A DNA stretch of 64,000 bases, taken from positions 1-64,000 of the IMG/VR virus record IMGVR_UViG_3300022669_000027; one strand, 5' to 3'. A program made the translations under genes and the position numbers. Every line of letters begins with the position of its first letter. The first letter of the stretch is position 1. The notes beneath the pieces were generated by a model, which was given only the letters and a program-made list of their open reading frames with translations, made no database searches and was not told where the DNA came from. Origin of the DNA: a virus. Positions 1,636 to 55,784 of this stretch are shown here, one piece after another.

Positions 1636-2220
1636 AAAATAAAGAAGCTCCGAGACCGCTTGACCAGAGAACAAGCCCAACGGGATATGGTACTTCAACA
1701 ACGAGACCGCGCTTTAAAAAATCTTAAAAAAGCGGAGCAATTTTATGAAGACGCATTAAAGGCCCGGTCTATCCTCCAGACAGCCGCTGAAAATACACAA
1801 AAGGTTATGGAAACTCAAATGTCCACTTTAGTTACATCTGCTTTGGAAGGAATTTTTCCTGATCCCTATCAATTTGTTGTAAGGTTTGTGCAGAGACGTA
1901 ATAAAACGGAATGCGATCTTCTTTTCAGTAAAAACGGAGAAGAATTCAAACCTGTAGAATCTTCCGGGGGAGGCCCCTTGGACATAGCCTCTTTCGCTCT
2001 CCGAGTCGCTTTTTGGTGTATTCAAAGTAACAGACCCACCATCATATTGGACGAACCTTTTAAATTTCTTTCTGTAGACCTTCAACCCAAAGCCGGAGAA
2101 TTATTAAAACGGTTATCCGAAGAACTTGGAATTCAATTCATTGTTATCACTCATTTGACAGAATTACTCCCTTACGGAGATAACGTCATCAAAATAAACA
2201 AAGGAAAGGTAGAAAAATGA
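1603..2220 (+). CDS. SbcC/Rad50-like ATPase C-terminal half without Walker A
   Basis: The protein (205 residues) has an N-terminal coiled coil (about 10-70) followed by the C-terminal ABC-ATPase half of the SMC/Rad50/SbcC family. A signature-like SSGGGPLDIASFALR (about 126-140) precedes a Walker B IILDEPFKF (about 150-158) and an H-loop-like ITHL (about 184-187). No Walker A/P-loop is present here or in the visible upstream ORFs, so it is either a half-ATPase needing another subunit or a reduced phage form. Its position two genes after the SbcD-like nuclease supports an SbcCD-like repair complex. The stop overlaps the next start (ATGA). Confidence 0.8.
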   Translation: MTGNISKEELDKIKKLRDRLTREQAQRDMVLQQRDRALKNLKKAEQFYEDALKARSILQTAAENTQKVMETQMSTLVTSALEGIFPDPYQFVVRFVQRRNKTECDLLFSKNGEEFKPVESSGGGPLDIASFALRVAFWCIQSNRPTIILDEPFKFLSVDLQPKAGELLKRLSEELGIQFIVITHLTELLPYGDNVIKINKGKVEK

Positions 2221-2471
2221 AATGTGGTAATTGTCAGGGCTTGTTATTTACCATAACAAAGAAGAAGAGCTGTCATGACTGTGTTTACAACGGTTTTTTT
2301 GATGAGGAAGCAGATGAATGGCAATTCGGTGAATTGCCATCAAACGATATAGAACGCACTATGGTAGAGGAGGAAGGAGAGTGTTTTCTCAACAGTGCCT
2401 ATGGGGAAGGGTGTTATCTTTTTATATGCAGTGAATGCAGCTCAAAAAGTAATGTGGCTTTAATTGGATAA
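2217..2471 (+). CDS. Small cysteine-rich (zinc-binding) hypothetical protein
   Basis: An 84-residue acidic protein with paired cysteines: CGNC at residues 3-6, CHDC near 19-22, and CSEC near the C-terminus. This is a likely structural zinc site. It is translationally coupled to the ATPase half (ATGA) and followed 5 nt later by the PD-(D/E)XK nuclease gene. I do not recognise a family. Confidence 0.7.
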   Translation: MKCGNCQGLLFTITKKKSCHDCVYNGFFDEEADEWQFGELPSNDIERTMVEEEGECFLNSAYGEGCYLFICSECSSKSNVALIG

Positions 2472-2476
2472 ATGAT

Positions 2477-3058
2477 ATGGCAAATAAATCATCTAAAGGA
2501 GGAGAATTTGAAAGGGAATTTTCAAAAATATTCTCTAAATATGTATCTAATGGAAAAAGAACTGATATTTTCTGGAGGACAGCTCAATCTGGGGGCCGTG
2601 CGACCCAAAGAGCCAAGCAAAATTTGAAAACGGAGGGCGCATATGGTGACATAACTTGTCTGGACAGCACCTATTCTTTCGTCACCGAAGCCTGTTGTTT
2701 TGAACTCAAAAGAGGATACAACAACACTAATTTTCAAGATATGGTGGACGGTACCAAAAAAGAACCGGAATTAAAAAAATTCTGGACTCAATGTGAAAGA
2801 GACAGGGAACTTGGAGGACGGCTTTTTTCTATTGTGGTGACGAAAAGGGATCGAAAAAAACCAATTATCACCATTCCCAGAAAATTACATTATCTTATTT
2901 CTCATAAAATAGGATTATGCTTGTATAATAGGATAGATATTTCTTATAAAGGAATGAGTACAACATCTATTCCTTTAGAAGAGTTTTTGGAAAACGTCCC
3001 CGCTTCTTCCTTTTTACGGATACTCAAAGAACAACTACGGAAACAAAAAGAAAGGTGA
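2477..3058 (+). CDS. PD-(D/E)XK-type nuclease, possibly a Holliday junction resolvase
   Basis: This 193-residue protein has the layout of a small restriction-like nuclease. An N-terminal helix carries a conserved glutamate region (GGEFEREFSKIF, about 8-19), followed by a WRTAQSGGR segment, then GDI (about 56-58), and FELKRG (about 75-80) supplying the ELK part of the motif. In this superfamily these residues bind Mg2+ and cleave DNA. In a phage recombination and repair operon, a branched-DNA or end-processing role is plausible, but the specificity cannot be read from sequence. The C-terminal tail is strongly basic. Confidence 0.65.
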   Translation: MANKSSKGGEFEREFSKIFSKYVSNGKRTDIFWRTAQSGGRATQRAKQNLKTEGAYGDITCLDSTYSFVTEACCFELKRGYNNTNFQDMVDGTKKEPELKKFWTQCERDRELGGRLFSIVVTKRDRKKPIITIPRKLHYLISHKIGLCLYNRIDISYKGMSTTSIPLEEFLENVPASSFLRILKEQLRKQKER

Positions 3059-3063
3059 ATCAT

Positions 3064-4434
3064 ATGCCGTTGTCATCTGTTTATAAAAAATTAATGGCCC
3101 TCAAAAAAGAACGATCTTCCAATGCGAAGATTGAGATTCTAAAAACGTATTTGGAAGATCCTATATTCGATGTGGTGGTGCGAATGGCACTTTCCCATGA
3201 TAAAATATACAACATCAAATCATTCGGAAAGTATGATCCAGAATCCAGAGGAGGATCTTTTAAAGAAATCATCAGATTTCTTCAAATGCTGGAAGAACAA
3301 GACGGAGTTACTAAAATTCAAAAAGAAGAACTTCGCCAACTGGCTTCCGGGAATCCTGAAACTTTTTATGTAGTAGAGAGAATTGTCAATAAGGATCTGC
3401 GTTGTGGAGTACAAGCTGCTTTAATAAATCAAGCGGTTCCTGATACTGTTTTTGTGGTGCCCTATATGCGTTGTTCCACAGAAAAGGTAGGGATCAAAAA
3501 TATTACATACGACGGTGGGGCTTTTTGTCAAAAAAAAGCTGATGGTGGATTTTGTTATGGATATAATGACAGTGAATCAGGAGAACCGTTATTGATGACC
3601 CGGAACGGTAAATACATGAACATGCATGGATTTTTCAATGAAGACATTCGTAAATTGAGAAAAACTGATGAAGTGATCACAATGGAGATGACGGCTGTAG
3701 ACAAACACGGCAACGATCTCCCAAGGGAAATAAGTAATGGCTTGGTCACCAAAGCTATACGGGGCACCATCACCAAAGAAGAGGCTGCGTTGTTCCGGGG
3801 ACAAGCTTGGGACATCATTCCCCAAAAAGATTTTTGGAACGGACTCTTCCCCACGCCATATGAATTGCGTTGGAGGAGGGTCACATCAGTGACCCGGAAT
3901 ATGGATTTAATCAGTAGAATTTATTCTAGGCGCGTGTATTCGGAAGAAGAAGCCCGTATATTTTTTTCTGAAATGAGAAAAAAAGGACTTGAAGGAGCCG
4001 TCCTCAAAAACAGAACTTCTCCTTGGAAATCTCACACCAGCCCTCATCAAGTAAAACTCAAAAGAAAACATTGCGCAGAATTCATCGTCACCGGATGGTA
4101 TTATGGCAAACCAGGCTGGAAATATGAAAAATGTTTAGGGGGTCTTAATTTTGAATCCGTAGACGGGTTGGTGAAGTGCAATACAGGTTCTGGATTTACT
4201 GACAATGACAGGGGATTTTTGGGATTTGATAAAGACATGAATCCTTTGATAGACGAACAGATTGTGTCTGATTTGGATAAATGGATAGGGCAGATTATAT
4301 CTGTAGAATTCGATTCTTTGATCAAAGACAAAAACAGAAAAGACGGAACATGGTCATTGTTTCTACCAATATTTGATAAGCCCCGCCCTGATAAAGTAAA
4401 AGCAGACAATTATGAATATTTAAGGAGTCTATAA
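3064..4434 (+). CDS. ATP-dependent DNA ligase
   Basis: Seals nicks in duplex DNA during phage replication and repair. The nucleotidyltransferase motif I (KADG, lysine near residue 158) gives the AMP-accepting lysine. Motif III lies around EMTAVD, motif IV is EGAVLK and motif V QVKLKRK, followed by an OB-fold-like C-terminal domain. At about 456 residues it matches T4-type phage ligases. The ATG at 3064 follows AAAGGTG at a good distance and is preferred over a GTG at 3055 that overlaps the preceding stop. The last 35 bp plus the junction (4402-4436) recur at 6800-6834. Confidence 0.88.
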   Translation: MPLSSVYKKLMALKKERSSNAKIEILKTYLEDPIFDVVVRMALSHDKIYNIKSFGKYDPESRGGSFKEIIRFLQMLEEQDGVTKIQKEELRQLASGNPETFYVVERIVNKDLRCGVQAALINQAVPDTVFVVPYMRCSTEKVGIKNITYDGGAFCQKKADGGFCYGYNDSESGEPLLMTRNGKYMNMHGFFNEDIRKLRKTDEVITMEMTAVDKHGNDLPREISNGLVTKAIRGTITKEEAALFRGQAWDIIPQKDFWNGLFPTPYELRWRRVTSVTRNMDLISRIYSRRVYSEEEARIFFSEMRKKGLEGAVLKNRTSPWKSHTSPHQVKLKRKHCAEFIVTGWYYGKPGWKYEKCLGGLNFESVDGLVKCNTGSGFTDNDRGFLGFDKDMNPLIDEQIVSDLDKWIGQIISVEFDSLIKDKNRKDGTWSLFLPIFDKPRPDKVKADNYEYLRSL

Positions 4435-50237: not shown

Positions 50238-50534
50238 TTATAAAAAATCAACGCCGCAATTAGGGCAGTACATTCCCTCCTGCATAACATGAAGTAGATC
50301 ATTCCCACAATCACAAGTTAGATGAGGGCCTTCCCGCAGGACCAAGTACTTAAAATGCCCTTTATAACAATTGCATTTCGGACATTGTAACTGGATCGTT
50401 CCAACCGGAGCTATCCCGGTCCACTCGTGACCACATCCGATGCAATGACATTCTCCACCTATATGGGGATCATATCTTTCCGACTCTGATTTGATCTCTT
50501 TACCGGTACAAAAATCGATCATTTTACCTGACAT
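50238..50534 (-). CDS. Triple zinc-ribbon small protein
   Basis: 98 residues with five CxxC-type pairs or half-pairs: CHCIGC, CPKC, CDC, and CPNC near the end, consistent with two to three zinc ribbons. Likely nucleic acid- or protein-binding; the exact role is unknown. The intergenic region behind it (50211-50216 on the minus strand) contains a TATAAT that may be a promoter -10 for the portal gene, though the -35 is poor. Confidence 0.7.
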   Translation of the reverse strand: MSGKMIDFCTGKEIKSESERYDPHIGGECHCIGCGHEWTGIAPVGTIQLQCPKCNCYKGHFKYLVLREGPHLTCDCGNDLLHVMQEGMYCPNCGVDFL

Positions 50535-50871
50535 GTGTATATCCTTCTCTTGATAAAAAACGAACTACTTCATTCAAATCAACAATAACCCTGGGCCATT
50601 TATTAATTGTTCCTCCGCATATACAAAAAGAGCGACTCTTTTCAGTAATGATATTGAAAGACGGATTTTCCAAAAGACTGCATATACTATAGGTCTCAAA
50701 TCCTGTAGGGCCTCCAACGAACTCGATTAAATCTTCTTCTCCTTTCCTTTCTATGACTTCCATTCGTATCGTTTTCTCCCGGCTCCTCTTTTCTACATTT
50801 ATGTATTCCCCCAAAGTTCTGTCCCATGTTCCTATAGACATCTCCCACTTCGAATTGATTTCCTTTTTCAT
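50524..50871 (-). CDS. Hypothetical protein
   Basis: 115 residues, mixed alpha/beta, with CICGG (about 83-87) as the only motif. It overlaps both neighbours by 4-11 bases and so belongs to the same accessory operon. No family recognised. Confidence 0.62.
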   Translation of the reverse strand: MKKEINSKWEMSIGTWDRTLGEYINVEKRSREKTIRMEVIERKGEEDLIEFVGGPTGFETYSICSLLENPSFNIITEKSRSFCICGGTINKWPRVIVDLNEVVRFLSREGYTHVR

Positions 50872-51059
50872 TTCCTTCTCCCTTTTCTTGTTATTTTTCT
50901 CTGATCTTCTGTCACTAAACGAGTCAAATATTCTGCAACCTTTGACTCCATGGATGAACTAACAACCGGGGCCATAGAAGAACTATTAAGATCTATGATC
51001 TGAAATATAACAATCCCGGTACATGAACTTTCTTGAATCTGCGCTTTCAATCCTTCCAT
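50868..51059 (-). CDS. Small hypothetical protein
   Basis: 63 residues from the ATG at 51059, which has GGAGG upstream; the frame is open further upstream but lacks a better start. Ser/Val-rich middle and a very basic end (RKITRKGRRK). It overlaps the preceding gene by 13 bases and the next by ATGA. Function unknown. Confidence 0.58.
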   Translation of the reverse strand: MEGLKAQIQESSCTGIVIFQIIDLNSSSMAPVVSSSMESKVAEYLTRLVTEDQRKITRKGRRK

Positions 51060-51619
51060 TGGGTTCCCTCCAGTTCTTTCATTGTTTGCAAAAACAATTC
51101 CCATGAACCGATTGCCTTGATAAACAGCAATGCGCTAAAAAGAAACCGTACCACAAAAGATACCTTGCCTAATATTTTCCATGTAGACACTGTAGATTGG
51201 GGGATACCAGTTACTTCGCAGAATTTACTTTGAGGAGCCTTTATCCCGAACAACCTCACCATTCCGGTATGGACTCCGATCCCGTCCATAAACGCGGAAC
51301 TGTGAGCTTTTCTCACAGTCAATATCCTCTGTATGAAACCGTCCACCGCCTGTAATTGGGCACAAATCGCCTCATTGGGATCTGTAAAAGATCCCGACAC
51401 GTACCAAAATAACTCCCCAGCCTCTTCTCCCGTGGAACTGCATAATACTGTAAATTCATCCGTCACAGGACATCTGGTCAATGTCATGCCTTGCTTAAAC
51501 AAAGAAACATGCCATCCCAGATTTTGGGATATTCGAATATCCCAACCCTCCGGGTCATGAAGTAAGTCGAGTCCTGCTTTCCCGGCTTCCTGAGCTTCTT
51601 TTTTTGACAAATAGGCCAC
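51047..51619 (-). CDS. Hypothetical protein with a possible HTH and membrane segment
   Basis: 190 residues. Residues about 130-150 (GIKAPQSKFCEVTGIPQSTV) resemble a helix-turn-helix turn, and about 150-175 form a hydrophobic helix. This combination could be a membrane-linked regulator, but neither feature is strong. Start preceded by GGAGGTGATTTTGT. Confidence 0.6.
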   Translation of the reverse strand: MAYLSKKEAQEAGKAGLDLLHDPEGWDIRISQNLGWHVSLFKQGMTLTRCPVTDEFTVLCSSTGEEAGELFWYVSGSFTDPNEAICAQLQAVDGFIQRILTVRKAHSSAFMDGIGVHTGMVRLFGIKAPQSKFCEVTGIPQSTVSTWKILGKVSFVVRFLFSALLFIKAIGSWELFLQTMKELEGTQWKD

Positions 51620-51623
51620 AAAA

Positions 51624-51791
51624 TCACCTCCTTGATTTTAAGTAACGGTTCCAGTCTACGGCTTCCGTAAAACTATCAAATTCTTCTTTGATTTTTTCTC
51701 TTTCTTCTTTGATTTCTTCGAGAGAAGGCGGGACATATCCCACAGACGGAGCGTTGATGAATTCCTTCGCTGTAATGATTTCATGTTGCAT
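51624..51791 (-). CDS. 55-residue acidic helical peptide
   Basis: The ATG at 51791 follows AAGGAGAAAGG; a longer frame to 51902 is open but has no such signal. Rich in Glu/Lys (LEEIKEEREKIKEEFDSF), so probably one amphipathic helix. Function unknown. Confidence 0.6.
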   Translation of the reverse strand: MQHEIITAKEFINAPSVGYVPPSLEEIKEEREKIKEEFDSFTEAVDWNRYLKSRR

Positions 51792-51807
51792 GTGCCTTTC
51801 TCCTTTA

Positions 51808-51912
51808 TTATATAATCGTAAAAGGTTTGATATCCACGTACACATATTTCCATTCCACTGTGTACTTGAACATAGCGCGAAGATCTCCTTCCTTGTATAC
51901 AATTGCGTTCAT
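51808..51912 (-). CDS. 34-residue peptide
   Basis: Preceded by AGGAGATCAATCC before its ATG at 51912. Reads MNAIVYKEGDLRAMFKYTVE and continues with aromatic strand-like residues. Supported by its ribosome-binding site and by fitting between two genes; no function known. Confidence 0.5.
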   Translation of the reverse strand: MNAIVYKEGDLRAMFKYTVEWKYVYVDIKPFTII

Positions 51913-51984
51913 GGATTGATCTCCTGTTGTGTTGGGTTATTCCCGGCCTTGTGACCGGGAGGGTATATTTATTTATATTCCTGC

Positions 51985-52602
51985 CTATATCAAAGAACCG
52001 TTGCTCATTTCTTCTATCCACTCTGCCTGGTGGTATCCTTCAGGCACCAGAGAATTTACTTTTATTTGGAAGTGGAGCATTGCAGAGCCTTCGAACCTGA
52101 TAGAGTTTGTAACCCGAAGGCATCTACAATCGGATTCTGTAAGTTCAGGAAAATCTTTTTTTGCCTCAAGATAAAGTTCTTTATATAGCCGTAGGTCGGT
52201 TCCGTAACAATCTGGAATAATAACGCAGTTCCATATTTCACCATTAGTCCGTACCATCTTTGTTGTGTTCATGGTTGTTTTTCTGGCAGACTTAGGAGCA
52301 GGCTTTATTATCTCCGATTGAATTTCCATATCTTCGATTTTAGAAAAACCGTACCAGTCCGTGTTGTTCGCTACCGGAGCCGCGCTTTCTTCCCATCCCA
52401 TTTTCTTAAAAAGCTGGACAGAAGAATCTGAAAAAGAATCAGAAGTCGCTAACAAGTGTAGATGCCCGCTGATTTCGTCCACTATCTTCGCTTTGGACTG
52501 TGTTGTATCAATGCCTACTGCGAGGTCACCATTCATTTCCTCAGCGGCTTCCATGATTACTTCCCGGCGTACTGTTTTGATGATTGTTGTCCGTGCTTGC
52601 AT
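51985..52602 (-). CDS. First gene of a leftward accessory operon, hypothetical
   Basis: 205 residues from the ATG at 52602 (AGGAG upstream), about 40 bp after the promoter at 52651-52679. Upstream codons of the same frame are open but lie in the promoter and terminator. The protein is mixed alpha/beta with a helical N-terminus, GIDTTQSKAKIVDEISGHLH near 30-50, and a Ser/Asp-rich middle. No family recognised. Its strong promoter, shared with the moron, suggests expression separate from the structural genes. Confidence 0.68.
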   Translation of the reverse strand: MQARTTIIKTVRREVIMEAAEEMNGDLAVGIDTTQSKAKIVDEISGHLHLLATSDSFSDSSVQLFKKMGWEESAAPVANNTDWYGFSKIEDMEIQSEIIKPAPKSARKTTMNTTKMVRTNGEIWNCVIIPDCYGTDLRLYKELYLEAKKDFPELTESDCRCLRVTNSIRFEGSAMLHFQIKVNSLVPEGYHQAEWIEEMSNGSLI

Positions 52603-52650
52603 TTTGTTCTCCTGGTTGATTTGTATACCGTTTCCCTTACCTTCAAGTAC

Positions 52651-52679
52651 AGTATATTCTGATACGGAAAGAAAGTAAA
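52651..52679 (-). promoter_or_regulatory. Leftward promoter TTTACT-N17-TATACT
   Basis: On the minus strand, TTTACT (52679-52674) and TATACT (52656-52651), 17 bp apart. Identical to the moron promoter over 33 bp (52631-52663), including 20 bp beyond the -10, which suggests a shared operator as well as RNA polymerase contacts. Confidence 0.75.
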
Positions 52680-52718
52680 GAAAAAAATAACGTATTTCGA
52701 TATTTTTTTCTCGCCAAC

Positions 52719-52756
52719 AAAAAGCCCCTCTCTTTCTTGTCGGTGAAGAGAGGGGC
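52719..52756 (-). terminator. Rho-independent terminator upstream of the 52.65-kb promoter
   Basis: GCCCCTCTC (52724-52732) and GAGAGGGGC (52748-52756) form a 9-bp stem. On the minus strand the stem is followed by five T residues (52723-52719). It insulates the accessory operon from terL transcription. Confidence 0.8.
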
Positions 52757-52905
52757 AAAAGGAGGGTAAGCGGAGAACAGAATAATAAAAAACGCTTACT
52801 AACAACGGACAACACTAATGCTTCGGGAAAGAAGCACAACCACTGGAACCCTTACTTGGCCCTCTCGATTTAGGAATATCCGTTACTAAATTATTATACA
52901 ACGGA

Positions 52906-52982: not shown

Positions 52983-55784
52983 TTATAAACCGGAAAGCCG
53001 CGTCTGTTCTAATACCCTTTTCTTAATAGGGAATTGACCGTGTATGTAGTATCCACCGGCATCGCAATTGGACACTATCGGACTATGCTTAGTTAATTTA
53101 AAATACCCATAATCAGGCACCGTCAAACAATATACGTCCTGGTCTTCTTCTGGATTCATGGTAACAAGTTCTACTGCAGTATTTTGCAGGGGGAAGGTAT
53201 CTGTCCCTTTTAAATACCTCTCCACAATATTGACAAGTATACTGGACAGCATCCACTCCCGACTTTCTTCTGGCCGCCGCTGTACACGCCTTTGAACAAT
53301 ACTTATTGCGCTTTTGAATTTCCGCTTCATACTCCTTTTCACAGTGGGAGCAAGTAAACCTGCCTCGTTTGTGGAGTTTATGTTTGACTTTTTGGTAATT
53401 TTCACGAGCCTGTTTTCGTCCTTCCTCTGATTGATGCCAAGCCCGTGCCTTCTTTTGGCTGTCCCCGTCAGAAGTGAAACTGCCCCTCTGAAACCCGTTC
53501 CGTACCCGTTCTTCCAGATGGTATTTTGCATGATCGGAACAAGACACAAGTTCCAGATTCTCAATTTCGTTATTGTCCGGATCATGGTCTTTATGATGGA
53601 TGACATACCCCTTTGGAATTGGGACCACCTTGTCTTTATAGATTTCCCTATGTAATAACCTAACGCCTTTACTGCCAAGGAAACACTGCCAATATCCCCC
53701 GTGTTTAACATAGGTATTTCCGTTATAAACTTCTGTCCTTTGTTGGCCTTTCCTATTTCTACCCATTGCAAATCCTCCGTCAAAAATAAATGATCAGGTG
53801 TAGCTATTATATAATAGCTACGTGCATCAGGTAAAGAAAAAACGTACTTGTATACTTTCTGTTGTTTCTTTTTTATACCTCCCTTAACATAGGAACTCCA
53901 ATCCTCATTACTCACCCTTACCTTGCCCGTGCGCGGAATGTCCTTAAATCTGAAAATCCCCTTATCTGTTTCTACTAATTGATCCCCTCCGAAACAAATA
54001 TCATCTCCCTTCCCCTCTCCTTTTTCCGGGAGACCATTCGCATCATAGGCCTGCTGTTCCAGAGAATCCGTATAAAACGGACACTCTGATGTATTGACCT
54101 TGTACCGACGTTCTCCTTGAGAATTGCAGAACATACCGTTCATAGAGGCAATCCTGTCTTTAGGAACTGGGTTGCGGCTTCTCCTTTTTATTCGCCATCG
54201 TTCATCTTTAAGCAATTGTAGATCAGACTCAGTAGCATTCTGACTTTTTCTATTTTTTGAAGTAGCATCAGGATACACTGTGATGGGCCAACCATGATAT
54301 CTGCTGTTGAGTACCCGAATTGTATCAGGAGTATCGAAACTGTTAACAACTTCATCCACAGCTATCGGTGACCCATCCCTCAATACATGAACTACTGCAC
54401 AGCCTCTCCCTACATTAAAGTCCATTCCTATATGAAGAGGCTCTTTCTGACGGGGATCTATTCTCACATCAGAATGATTATGCTTCCTACTGAACATATG
54501 GTATACAGTACCGGACGTAAGATTGGTGAAAATCCCTTCTACATACGCCTCTAACAAATTCTCATCATAATTACCTTTCAAACTGTCCACATAATCCTCT
54601 GGGAGATTCGCCTGATTGGAATATGTAGAGGCCCTGACATATATATGTTCTTTTGAGGGGTTCTTTTCCCACCTGTTATACACGAAGTTAAACCCCTCTG
54701 GGGTAGTATATGCGCATACCTGGTTCGTTGGACTGCCCGGTAATTTCTGGCGATTTCTTGCTATGATCTTATTCCATGCGTTCTGGGCATTCTTGAATTT
54801 CAGGGTATCTATCTCATCAACATGACTTCTGAACGCTTCGTACCCGATAATACGATTGGGCTTATCCAATGTCCTTATGACAAACATACCTCTGTTCAAA
54901 AGGTAGATAACATTTTCAGACTTATTGTGGAGGTAGGGGACATTGGCTGTATCAAGGAGTTCCAAAAGGCGAGGGATAAGAATGAGACGTGCAAGATCAT
55001 ACGTAGGTTCGTACAAAGCTACTGTAGACCTGGGCCACATGAATTTATCTCGGATTGCCCTGGCCAATAATGTCTGTGTCTTGCCGCTATTATGATGAAT
55101 ATGTCCATATTCATCCACATAATTATTTGTATTTAGTACCTGTATATCCCAATAAACCTCCTTCACTTCCTTTACCGAAACCTTTATTATATCCGTAATA
55201 GACAAATCACTATTCTTCAAAGAGACAGGGTGGGATTTTAGAACATCGTTTGATAATGAGTGACATGCTCCAGCGTCCTCTCCTCCCTGAAGAAATTGTT
55301 GACCATATTGACGGGATAACTCTCCATAATTCACCAAAGAATCTACGTCTTTTTGAGAATAATGCCCTTCATCTGAAAACAACAATTTCAAATCAGATCC
55401 CGAAGTGGTCTTTGGAAGGTCTCTGTTCAATCGATAAAGGCCGGAGGAGTATCCCAATTCAGAAATCTGTTGATAAGTACCGTGAGATGAAAGAGAGTGG
55501 TGATGCCCGCTTGATACAAATTCTCCGTGCTGCGATTGAACTCGGAACAGATAGTCCTTACCTTTTGGGAACGCACCACTGGTTGGAGAAAGCACGAATT
55601 GATTACAGTTCTGATCATAACTTAAAACGCGCTCTCCTGGCAATATATCGCAAATATTCTTGAGCCCATTCTCTGTCCATATGCGGGTATCTGCCCGCAT
55701 ACAACCGAAGCCTCCAACGAAAGCTGGGTACTTGCAATCTAACCAGAAGAAGTCAGATTGAGGTTGTGTTAAATCCCATCCCAT
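52983..55784 (-). CDS. terL: Terminase large subunit interrupted by two inteins
   Basis: 933 residues as encoded, 418 after removal of two inteins (residues 28-232 and 597-906). Extein motifs: Walker A GGFG joined to SGKTQ, Walker B with VDEID (about 322-326), coupling motif TTPEG (about 360-364), and the RNase H-like nuclease with GMDFN (D455), VYPDATS (D506) and GDDI joined to CDAGGY (D595). It translocates and cuts concatemeric DNA into proheads. Intein 1 splits the P-loop, intein 2 splits the nuclease active site, so splicing is needed for both activities. Start preceded by AAAAGGACATAG. Confidence 0.92.
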   Translation of the reverse strand: MGWDLTQPQSDFFWLDCKYPAFVGGFGCMRADTRIWTENGLKNICDILPGERVLSYDQNCNQFVLSPTSGAFPKGKDYLFRVQSQHGEFVSSGHHHSLSSHGTYQQISELGYSSGLYRLNRDLPKTTSGSDLKLLFSDEGHYSQKDVDSLVNYGELSRQYGQQFLQGGEDAGACHSLSNDVLKSHPVSLKNSDLSITDIIKVSVKEVKEVYWDIQVLNTNNYVDEYGHIHHNSGKTQTLLARAIRDKFMWPRSTVALYEPTYDLARLILIPRLLELLDTANVPYLHNKSENVIYLLNRGMFVIRTLDKPNRIIGYEAFRSHVDEIDTLKFKNAQNAWNKIIARNRQKLPGSPTNQVCAYTTPEGFNFVYNRWEKNPSKEHIYVRASTYSNQANLPEDYVDSLKGNYDENLLEAYVEGIFTNLTSGTVYHMFSRKHNHSDVRIDPRQKEPLHIGMDFNVGRGCAVVHVLRDGSPIAVDEVVNSFDTPDTIRVLNSRYHGWPITVYPDATSKNRKSQNATESDLQLLKDERWRIKRRSRNPVPKDRIASMNGMFCNSQGERRYKVNTSECPFYTDSLEQQAYDANGLPEKGEGKGDDICFGGDQLVETDKGIFRFKDIPRTGKVRVSNEDWSSYVKGGIKKKQQKVYKYVFSLPDARSYYIIATPDHLFLTEDLQWVEIGKANKGQKFITEIPMLNTGDIGSVSLAVKALGYYIGKSIKTRWSQFQRGMSSIIKTMIRTITKLRIWNLCLVPIMQNTIWKNGYGTGFRGAVSLLTGTAKRRHGLGINQRKDENRLVKITKKSNINSTNEAGLLAPTVKRSMKRKFKSAISIVQRRVQRRPEESREWMLSSILVNIVERYLKGTDTFPLQNTAVELVTMNPEEDQDVYCLTVPDYGYFKLTKHSPIVSNCDAGGYYIHGQFPIKKRVLEQTRLSGL
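53067..53996 (-). mobile_element. TerL intein 2, in the nuclease active site
   Basis: 310 residues, starting CFGGDQLVETDKG after GDDI and ending KLTKHSPIVSN before C907. Block B is YIIATPDHLFLTEDLQW; block F is VYCLTVPDYGYF. C1, N310 and C+1 are intact. The linker between blocks B and F has no recognisable endonuclease in the intein frame; its translation is basic and unusual. The same DNA encodes a full HNH protein in another frame (53113-53766). Confidence 0.85.
53113..53766 (-). CDS. HNH homing endonuclease in an alternative frame of TerL intein 2
   Basis: 217 residues with its own ATG preceded by GGAGG seven bases upstream. HNH core: GYVIHHKDHDPDNNEIENL (about 53-71) then DHAKYHL. C-terminal zinc motifs: FTCSHCEKEY...KYCSKAC and YTCQYCGEVF...KYCSRTC. 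The frame differs from TerL by two bases, so this is a nested gene, not an intein domain. It begins in the codons after intein block B and ends inside block F. HNH enzymes of this type cut intein- or intron-less alleles to drive homing. Translation from an internal site on the terL mRNA is inferred. Confidence 0.85.
   Translation of the reverse strand: MGRNRKGQQRTEVYNGNTYVKHGGYWQCFLGSKGVRLLHREIYKDKVVPIPKGYVIHHKDHDPDNNEIENLELVSCSDHAKYHLEERVRNGFQRGSFTSDGDSQKKARAWHQSEEGRKQARENYQKVKHKLHKRGRFTCSHCEKEYEAEIQKRNKYCSKACTAAARRKSGVDAVQYTCQYCGEVFKRDRYLPPAKYCSRTCYHESRRRPGRILFDGA
55089..55703 (-). mobile_element. TerL intein 1, in the Walker A loop
   Basis: 205 residues, starting CMRADTRIWTENGLKNI after GGFG and ending VDEYGHIHHN before S233 (SGKTQ). 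Block A includes ILPGERVLSYD; block B is EFVSSGHHHSLSSHG; blocks F/G are VYWDIQVLNTNNYVDEYG and HHN. The linker (about residues 120-200) is not endonuclease-like in this frame. Its complementary strand encodes an HNH protein (55202-55663). Confidence 0.85.
55250..55663 (+). CDS. HNH endonuclease encoded antisense to TerL intein 1
   Basis: The only rightward gene in this region. The open frame runs from 55202; candidate starts are TTG 55250 and ATG 55256. The HNH module is unmistakable: EHRLIMSDMLQRPLLPEEIV (55241 on), DHIDG, HNSPKNLRLFENNALHL and PKWSLEG. It matches the common phage family with EHRLVM...LGRPLLP.EVVHHIDG. The core (55241-55420) is opposite the intein linker; the C-terminal part runs opposite blocks A and B. 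The start codon is uncertain because part of the HNH-family N-terminus lies before the first ATG and no strong ribosome-binding site is seen. It may be a functional antisense homing endonuclease or a decaying one. Confidence 0.7.
   Translation: MIMSDMLQRPLLPEEIVDHIDGITLHNSPKNLRLFENNALHLKTTISNQIPKWSLEGLCSIDKGRRSIPIQKSVDKYREMKESGDARLIQILRAAIELGTDSPYLLGTHHWLEKARIDYSSDHNLKRALLAIYRKYS

Follow-up and report, generated by a model that had tools for sequence, protein, structure and literature searches.

Can one stretch of phage DNA be read both as the linker of a splicing intein and, in a different reading frame, as a free homing endonuclease? This question is raised by the large terminase gene (terL) in the window that we analyzed, i.e., 64,000 nucleotides of viral DNA (positions 1 to 64,000 of IMG/VR record IMGVR_UViG_3300022669_000027). 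A sequence-only reading had proposed that a 217-codon HNH endonuclease gene, with its own ribosome-binding site, lies within the second TerL intein, two bases out of frame with TerL. We found that this observation is correct base for base and that it is not a one-off. The features of the locus are as follows:

52983 to 55784, minus strand: terL, the large terminase gene, one open frame of 933 codons carrying two inteins
53067 to 53996, minus strand: intein 2 (310 aa), at the last-Asp motif of the TerL RuvC-like nuclease domain, DDI|C...N|CDAGGYY
53113 to 53766, minus strand: nested HNH endonuclease gene (217 aa), 2 bases out of frame with TerL
53774 to 53778, minus strand: Shine-Dalgarno GGAGG, 7 nt upstream of the HNH ATG, inside the IntN coding sequence
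53518 to 53598, minus strand: HNH catalytic segment H57-H58...N66...H79...H83 (HHKDHDPDNNEIENL)
53164 to 53352, minus strand: two zinc-ribbon-like CxxC...CxxxC motifs of the HNH protein
55089 to 55703, minus strand: intein 1 (205 aa), in the TerL Walker A motif, GGFG|C...HHN|SGKT
55205 to 55663, plus strand: antisense HNH reading frame inside intein 1, lacking about 80 N-terminal residues of its family, with a possible TTG start at 55250

The terL frame matched Terminase_6N at 7e-8, phrog_38319 at 1e-44, and phrog_2 at 1e-26, and it was the only terL copy found in the 67 kb record. Intein 2 has a complete splicing domain with extein junctions DDI|CFGG...VSN|CDAGGYY, and the junction DDI-CDAGGYY continues the alignment with terminases lacking this intein. 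The nested ORF, whose ATG is preceded by ttttgacGGAGGatttgca, starts just after intein block B (TPDHLFLT) and stops inside block F (VYCLTVPDYGY). Its translation matched HNH_3 at 7e-13 and phrog_15471 at 7e-27 over residues 20-202, whereas the TerL-frame translation of the same DNA matched only Intein_splicing, at the two ends, with no nuclease. In structure predictions with AF2, the Hint halves of the intein (residues 1-90 and 281-310) modeled mostly at pLDDT 93-98, with Foldseek best hits that were nearly all inteins or Hint domains (gp41-1, NrdJ-1), while the linker between them (residues 101-270) was mostly below 55. The same DNA read in the HNH frame modeled at a mean pLDDT of 90, with the homing enzyme I-HmuI as the best fold match (prob 0.99, E 3.7e-3).

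To see whether this arrangement recurs, we searched named phages by tblastn and found the same HNH family inside the annotated terL of Acinetobacter phage Highwayman, Tetrasphaera phage TJE1, and Rhodobacteraceae phage LS06. In each of these, the TerL frame reads through an intein whose middle is not a nuclease, and the HNH lies in the same relative frame as in the window. A scan of IMG/VR with the single HNH protein of the window found nothing, but a profile built from eight relatives gave 80 more loci (the best 80 of at least 538 relatives). In total, 52 loci, this window included, have the HNH nested in a same-strand ORF of about 400-1,400 codons, always with the host frame equal to the HNH frame +1 and never in the other frame. 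All 52 show intein blocks on both sides, with Cys1 in 52 of 52, a final Asn in 52 of 52, and Cys (47) or Ser (5) at the +1 position; Pfam found Intein_splicing in 43 and terminase families in many. The HNH residues H39, H57, H58, H79, C139, C142, C157, and C161 were present in 52 of 52 nested loci and N66 in 51 of 52, and in a 75-row alignment C139, C142, C157, C161, C178, C181, and C197 were invariant, with C201 at least 90%. Two outcomes that would have spoken against the sequence-only reading were looked for, and neither refuted it: No relative had the HNH in frame with the intein (0 of about 80), and the intein frame stayed open in 52 of the 64 loci where an HNH sits between both intein halves on the same strand, while in the other 12 TerL is split there.

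Is the open intein frame a matter of chance? In the window alone, the intein frame has 0 stops against 3.2 expected by synonymous shuffling (P = 0.013). Over all 52 loci, shuffling synonymous codons within each nested HNH gene predicted 112 stops in the intein frame, against 0 observed, whereas the third frame was not depleted (897 observed against 912 expected), nor were the split relatives (83 against 91) or the free-standing relatives (157 against 155). Because the nested loci were picked by having a long spanning ORF, the absence of stops is partly by construction. A fairer statement is that, of the 64 loci with both intein halves around a same-strand HNH, 52 keep the whole frame open, where codon shuffling would leave about 7 of the 52 open. 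Codon usage taken from the upstream part of each gene predicted 196 stops over 50 loci, against 0 observed, and about 2 open frames in 50. Notably, the HNH amino acid sequence is affected as well: Met followed by K, N, T, I, or M, which would force a TGA in the intein frame, occurred 0 times in 50 nested genes and 28 times in 34 controls. The controls, this Met signature, and the 64-locus count do not rest on the choice of loci alone.

The two frames are, however, constrained very differently. We looked for protein-level selection on the intein-frame linker and did not find it: At equal HNH identity, intein-frame identity was about the same in the nested, split, and free sets, and the HNH third codon position (the second position of the intein frame) was just as variable. 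Hence, the HNH keeps its sequence, while the intein frame keeps only its openness. This refines the sequence-only reading, in that the linker is a spacer under selection only for the absence of stops and not a second functional domain. The constant relative frame has a simple cause, as these hydrophilic proteins put about 17 stops per gene into the other frame and only a few into this one, such that it is the only one of the two alternatives that can practically be kept stop-free.

These data are consistent with a cis-splicing TerL intein whose homing endonuclease is not a domain of the intein but a complete HNH gene overprinted on the intein's linker in the -1 (+2) frame, an explanation in which we have high confidence although splicing, internal initiation, and site-specific cutting are inferred from sequence. 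In this picture, ribosomes that start at the terL start make one long precursor consisting of IntN, a roughly 170-residue unstructured spacer (the HNH gene read out of frame), and IntC, after which IntN and IntC fold together, excise themselves, and restore TerL. Ribosomes that start at the internal ATG (53766), using the GGAGG in IntN, make the free HNH enzyme from the same message. All 52 nested loci have a start codon near the HNH start (48 ATG, 4 GTG), and 26 of 52 have a Shine-Dalgarno against a 14% background, although half of the nested loci thus lack a clear one. The enzyme is inferred to cut intein-free terL alleles at the insertion site in co-infecting phages, so that repair copies the intein plus gene as one unit. 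In line with this, HNH and splicing-domain identities covaried (Mantel r 0.52, p 0.0005), and several pairs of loci share HNH and intein at about 50% with exteins near 20% (in one pair, HNH 54%, splicing domain 46%, extein 20%), which suggests transfer of the unit into TerLs that are otherwise very diverged. Yet, HNH identity correlated as strongly with extein identity (r 0.52), so much of the inheritance is vertical. No intein-minus sister allele of this phage was found, and the TerL of Acinetobacter phage BP10 was too distant from that of Highwayman (27%) to serve as an empty-site allele.

We considered other explanations. It is possible, but unlikely, that the HNH is a packaging nuclease that assists TerL (HK97 gp74-like) and sits here because of its link to terminase. 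Relatives of the same HNH family indeed stand free next to terL or terS in Shemara, Sphaerotilus phage SN1, and Acinetobacter phage BP10, and HNH genes by terminase have been noted as possibly serving packaging (PMC10448857). However, the position at the canonical endonuclease insertion point of an intein, which is normally a homing arrangement, the fold match to I-HmuI, and the patchy presence in very diverged TerLs speak against this, although the two roles are not exclusive. Similarly, the open TerL frame might be incidental, with these loci functioning as split inteins around a free HNH and the linker-containing precursor not splicing in cis, as twelve relatives are truly split. We regard this as very unlikely, since strong stop depletion occurred only in the nested loci and only in the host frame, and since the linker lies where inteins tolerate large insertions and the Hint halves model well.

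Programmed -1 frameshifting that yields an IntN-HNH fusion would fit the fact that the HNH frame is always the -1 frame of TerL, but the uniform frame is explained by the stop load described above. Moreover, the HNH frame is closed a median of 14 codons upstream of the HNH domain, and only 1 of 52 loci has an in-phase XXXYYYZ slippery heptamer there, so internal initiation is favored and frameshifting appears highly improbable. A sequencing or assembly indel that shifted an HNH that is really in frame, as in the usual layout of inteins with endonuclease domains, is refuted by comparison: Both frames run open through the whole region, which one indel cannot give, and 51 other loci, including genomes of named phages, show the same frame relation. 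A search for a group I or II intron with Rfam at E up to 1 gave only two weak sRNA matches, outside terL.

Interestingly, intein 1 of the same gene also hides an HNH, on the opposite strand, which the sequence-only reading did not report. Intein 1 matched Intein_splicing at 3.6e-4 and aligned with 10 relatives at the same site, and the antisense frame matched phrog_10730 at 2.9e-44 (profile residues 83-234 of 234), with 48% identity to the full-length antisense HNH in the terL of Pectobacterium phage Sabo. Full-length versions lie antisense in the same intein of Pectobacterium phage Sabo, of Pseudoalteromonas phage PHS3, and of IMG/VR loci, and seven near-identical Pectobacterium and Dickeya phages carry the same HNH. 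In ten such loci, the intein frame had 0 stops against 71 expected, with no depletion in the other two antisense frames; this, too, is a conserved class. The copy in the window lacks about 80 N-terminal residues and may be decaying; a shortened form was also seen in one other locus.

In the twelve split relatives, TerL-IntN ends in a stop, the HNH follows, and IntC-TerL starts anew, sometimes with a start that overlaps the HNH stop, and the frames of the pieces vary. One locus has the HNH antisense between split halves. On the HNH tree, the nested state was strongly clustered but changed at least four times on supported branches, which argues against a single origin, although the tree is weakly resolved and the row of the window is a long branch. 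Nested and split inteins therefore appear to interconvert.

How does this arrangement compare with known systems? The closest precedent is the ShiLan domain (Arsenault, Gosselin, Gogarten 2025, PMC11855218), where an HNH endonuclease gene with zinc fingers sits out of frame inside a mycobacteriophage methylase gene, the host frame stays open through it, and it is thought to home. Its authors found no intein or intron there, and the insert stays in the methylase, whereas here the out-of-frame HNH sits inside a complete splicing intein domain, in an essential gene, with a Shine-Dalgarno, and stop avoidance is demonstrated across 52 loci. In fractured genes (Dassa et al. 2009, cited in PMC10448857 and PMC6892783), a free-standing endonuclease gene lies between IntN and IntC at the canonical insertion point, as in the twelve split relatives, but the host gene is broken into two ORFs, while in the window the host frame reads through the endonuclease gene and the intein is contiguous. 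Conventional bifunctional inteins, e.g., the TerL inteins of mycobacteriophages (PMC5050341), share the residence in the terminase large subunit, the mobility through a nuclease, and the endonuclease insertion between blocks B and F. Here, however, the nuclease is a separate protein in another frame (or strand), and intein 2 is inserted in the nuclease domain, whereas the mycobacteriophage TerL inteins lie in the ATPase domain. I-HmuI (PDB 1u3e) is likewise an HNH homing enzyme, but one apparently encoded in a group I intron, and the window protein has an added zinc-ribbon-like C-terminal part. In the literature searched, we found no paper that describes an out-of-frame or antisense nuclease inside a splicing intein, although prior description in a recent preprint on the "Non-canonical architecture" of actinobacteriophage inteins (Gosselin et al. 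2025, bioRxiv) cannot be excluded.

Taken more broadly, phage terminases probably host a widespread, previously unrecognized class of mobile inteins in which the homing endonuclease gene is overprinted on the splicing element's own linker, either out of frame on the same strand or antisense, with the splicing frame kept only stop-free while the nuclease keeps its sequence; interconversion with split inteins bearing a free nuclease gene would make this state the missing step between fused and split inteins. Practically, gene annotation drops one of the two proteins: In Pseudoalteromonas phage PHS3, the antisense HNH is annotated and TerL is annotated without its N-terminal part and Walker A motif, while in Tetrasphaera phage TJE1, terL is annotated and the HNH is missed. 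The arrangement is also a clean natural example of overlapping genes in which one frame is selected for sequence and the other only for the absence of stops. Besides fusion in frame and separation into a split gene, overprinting, in both strand orientations and in an essential gene, is a third way for a splicing element and its homing nuclease to live together, and it offers a concrete route by which contiguous inteins could become split inteins, since a stop codon in the spacer frame plus a start before IntC would be enough.

Beyond the same-strand nested arrangement, we noted features elsewhere in the window and among the loci compared (numbered L), which lie at the following positions:
Window 50238-52839 (-), region between the portal gene and terL
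Window 55205-55663 (+), antisense HNH frame inside intein 1
L023 3055-5145, HNH antisense between the two halves of a split TerL intein
L046 1-4254, TerL frame holding the nested HNH intein
L075 3483-4106, HNH reading frame in two pieces
Pseudoalteromonas phage PHS3 (KX912252) 1703-3826, TerL frame and antisense HNH

In the window, the region between the portal gene (phrog_145, 8e-118) and terL contains ORFs of 98, 190, and 284 codons, none of which gave a PHROG match. Among the other loci, we observed split TerL inteins in which the HNH gene lies between IntN and IntC (L018, L022, L032, L037, L041, L042, L045, L048, L055, L057, L058, and L059), and in three of these (L032, L037, and L058), the start of IntC overlaps the stop of the HNH gene. 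In L075, the HNH reading frame is broken into two pieces downstream of an IntN, which perhaps represents a decaying copy. The TerL frame of L046 is 1,418 codons long, and one member of the nested set, probably this one, matches LAGLIDADG_3, Hom_end, and Hom_end_hint, suggesting the presence of a second, conventional intein.

Interestingly, an HNH can also lie on the opposite strand. In L023, an HNH of the same family is found antisense between the two halves of a split TerL intein. In Pseudoalteromonas phage PHS3, the record annotates the antisense HNH together with a TerL that lacks its N-terminal part, while the true TerL frame runs for 708 codons through the intein, with GGAGC...HHN|SGKS; the record is likely misannotated. 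Within the window itself, the Walker A intein (intein 1) carries an antisense HNH frame, although this copy is N-terminally truncated, and a shortened one was likewise observed in L099. Notably, the antisense HNH frames within the Walker A intein constitute a conserved class of their own, where the host frame showed 0 stops against 71 expected over ten loci.
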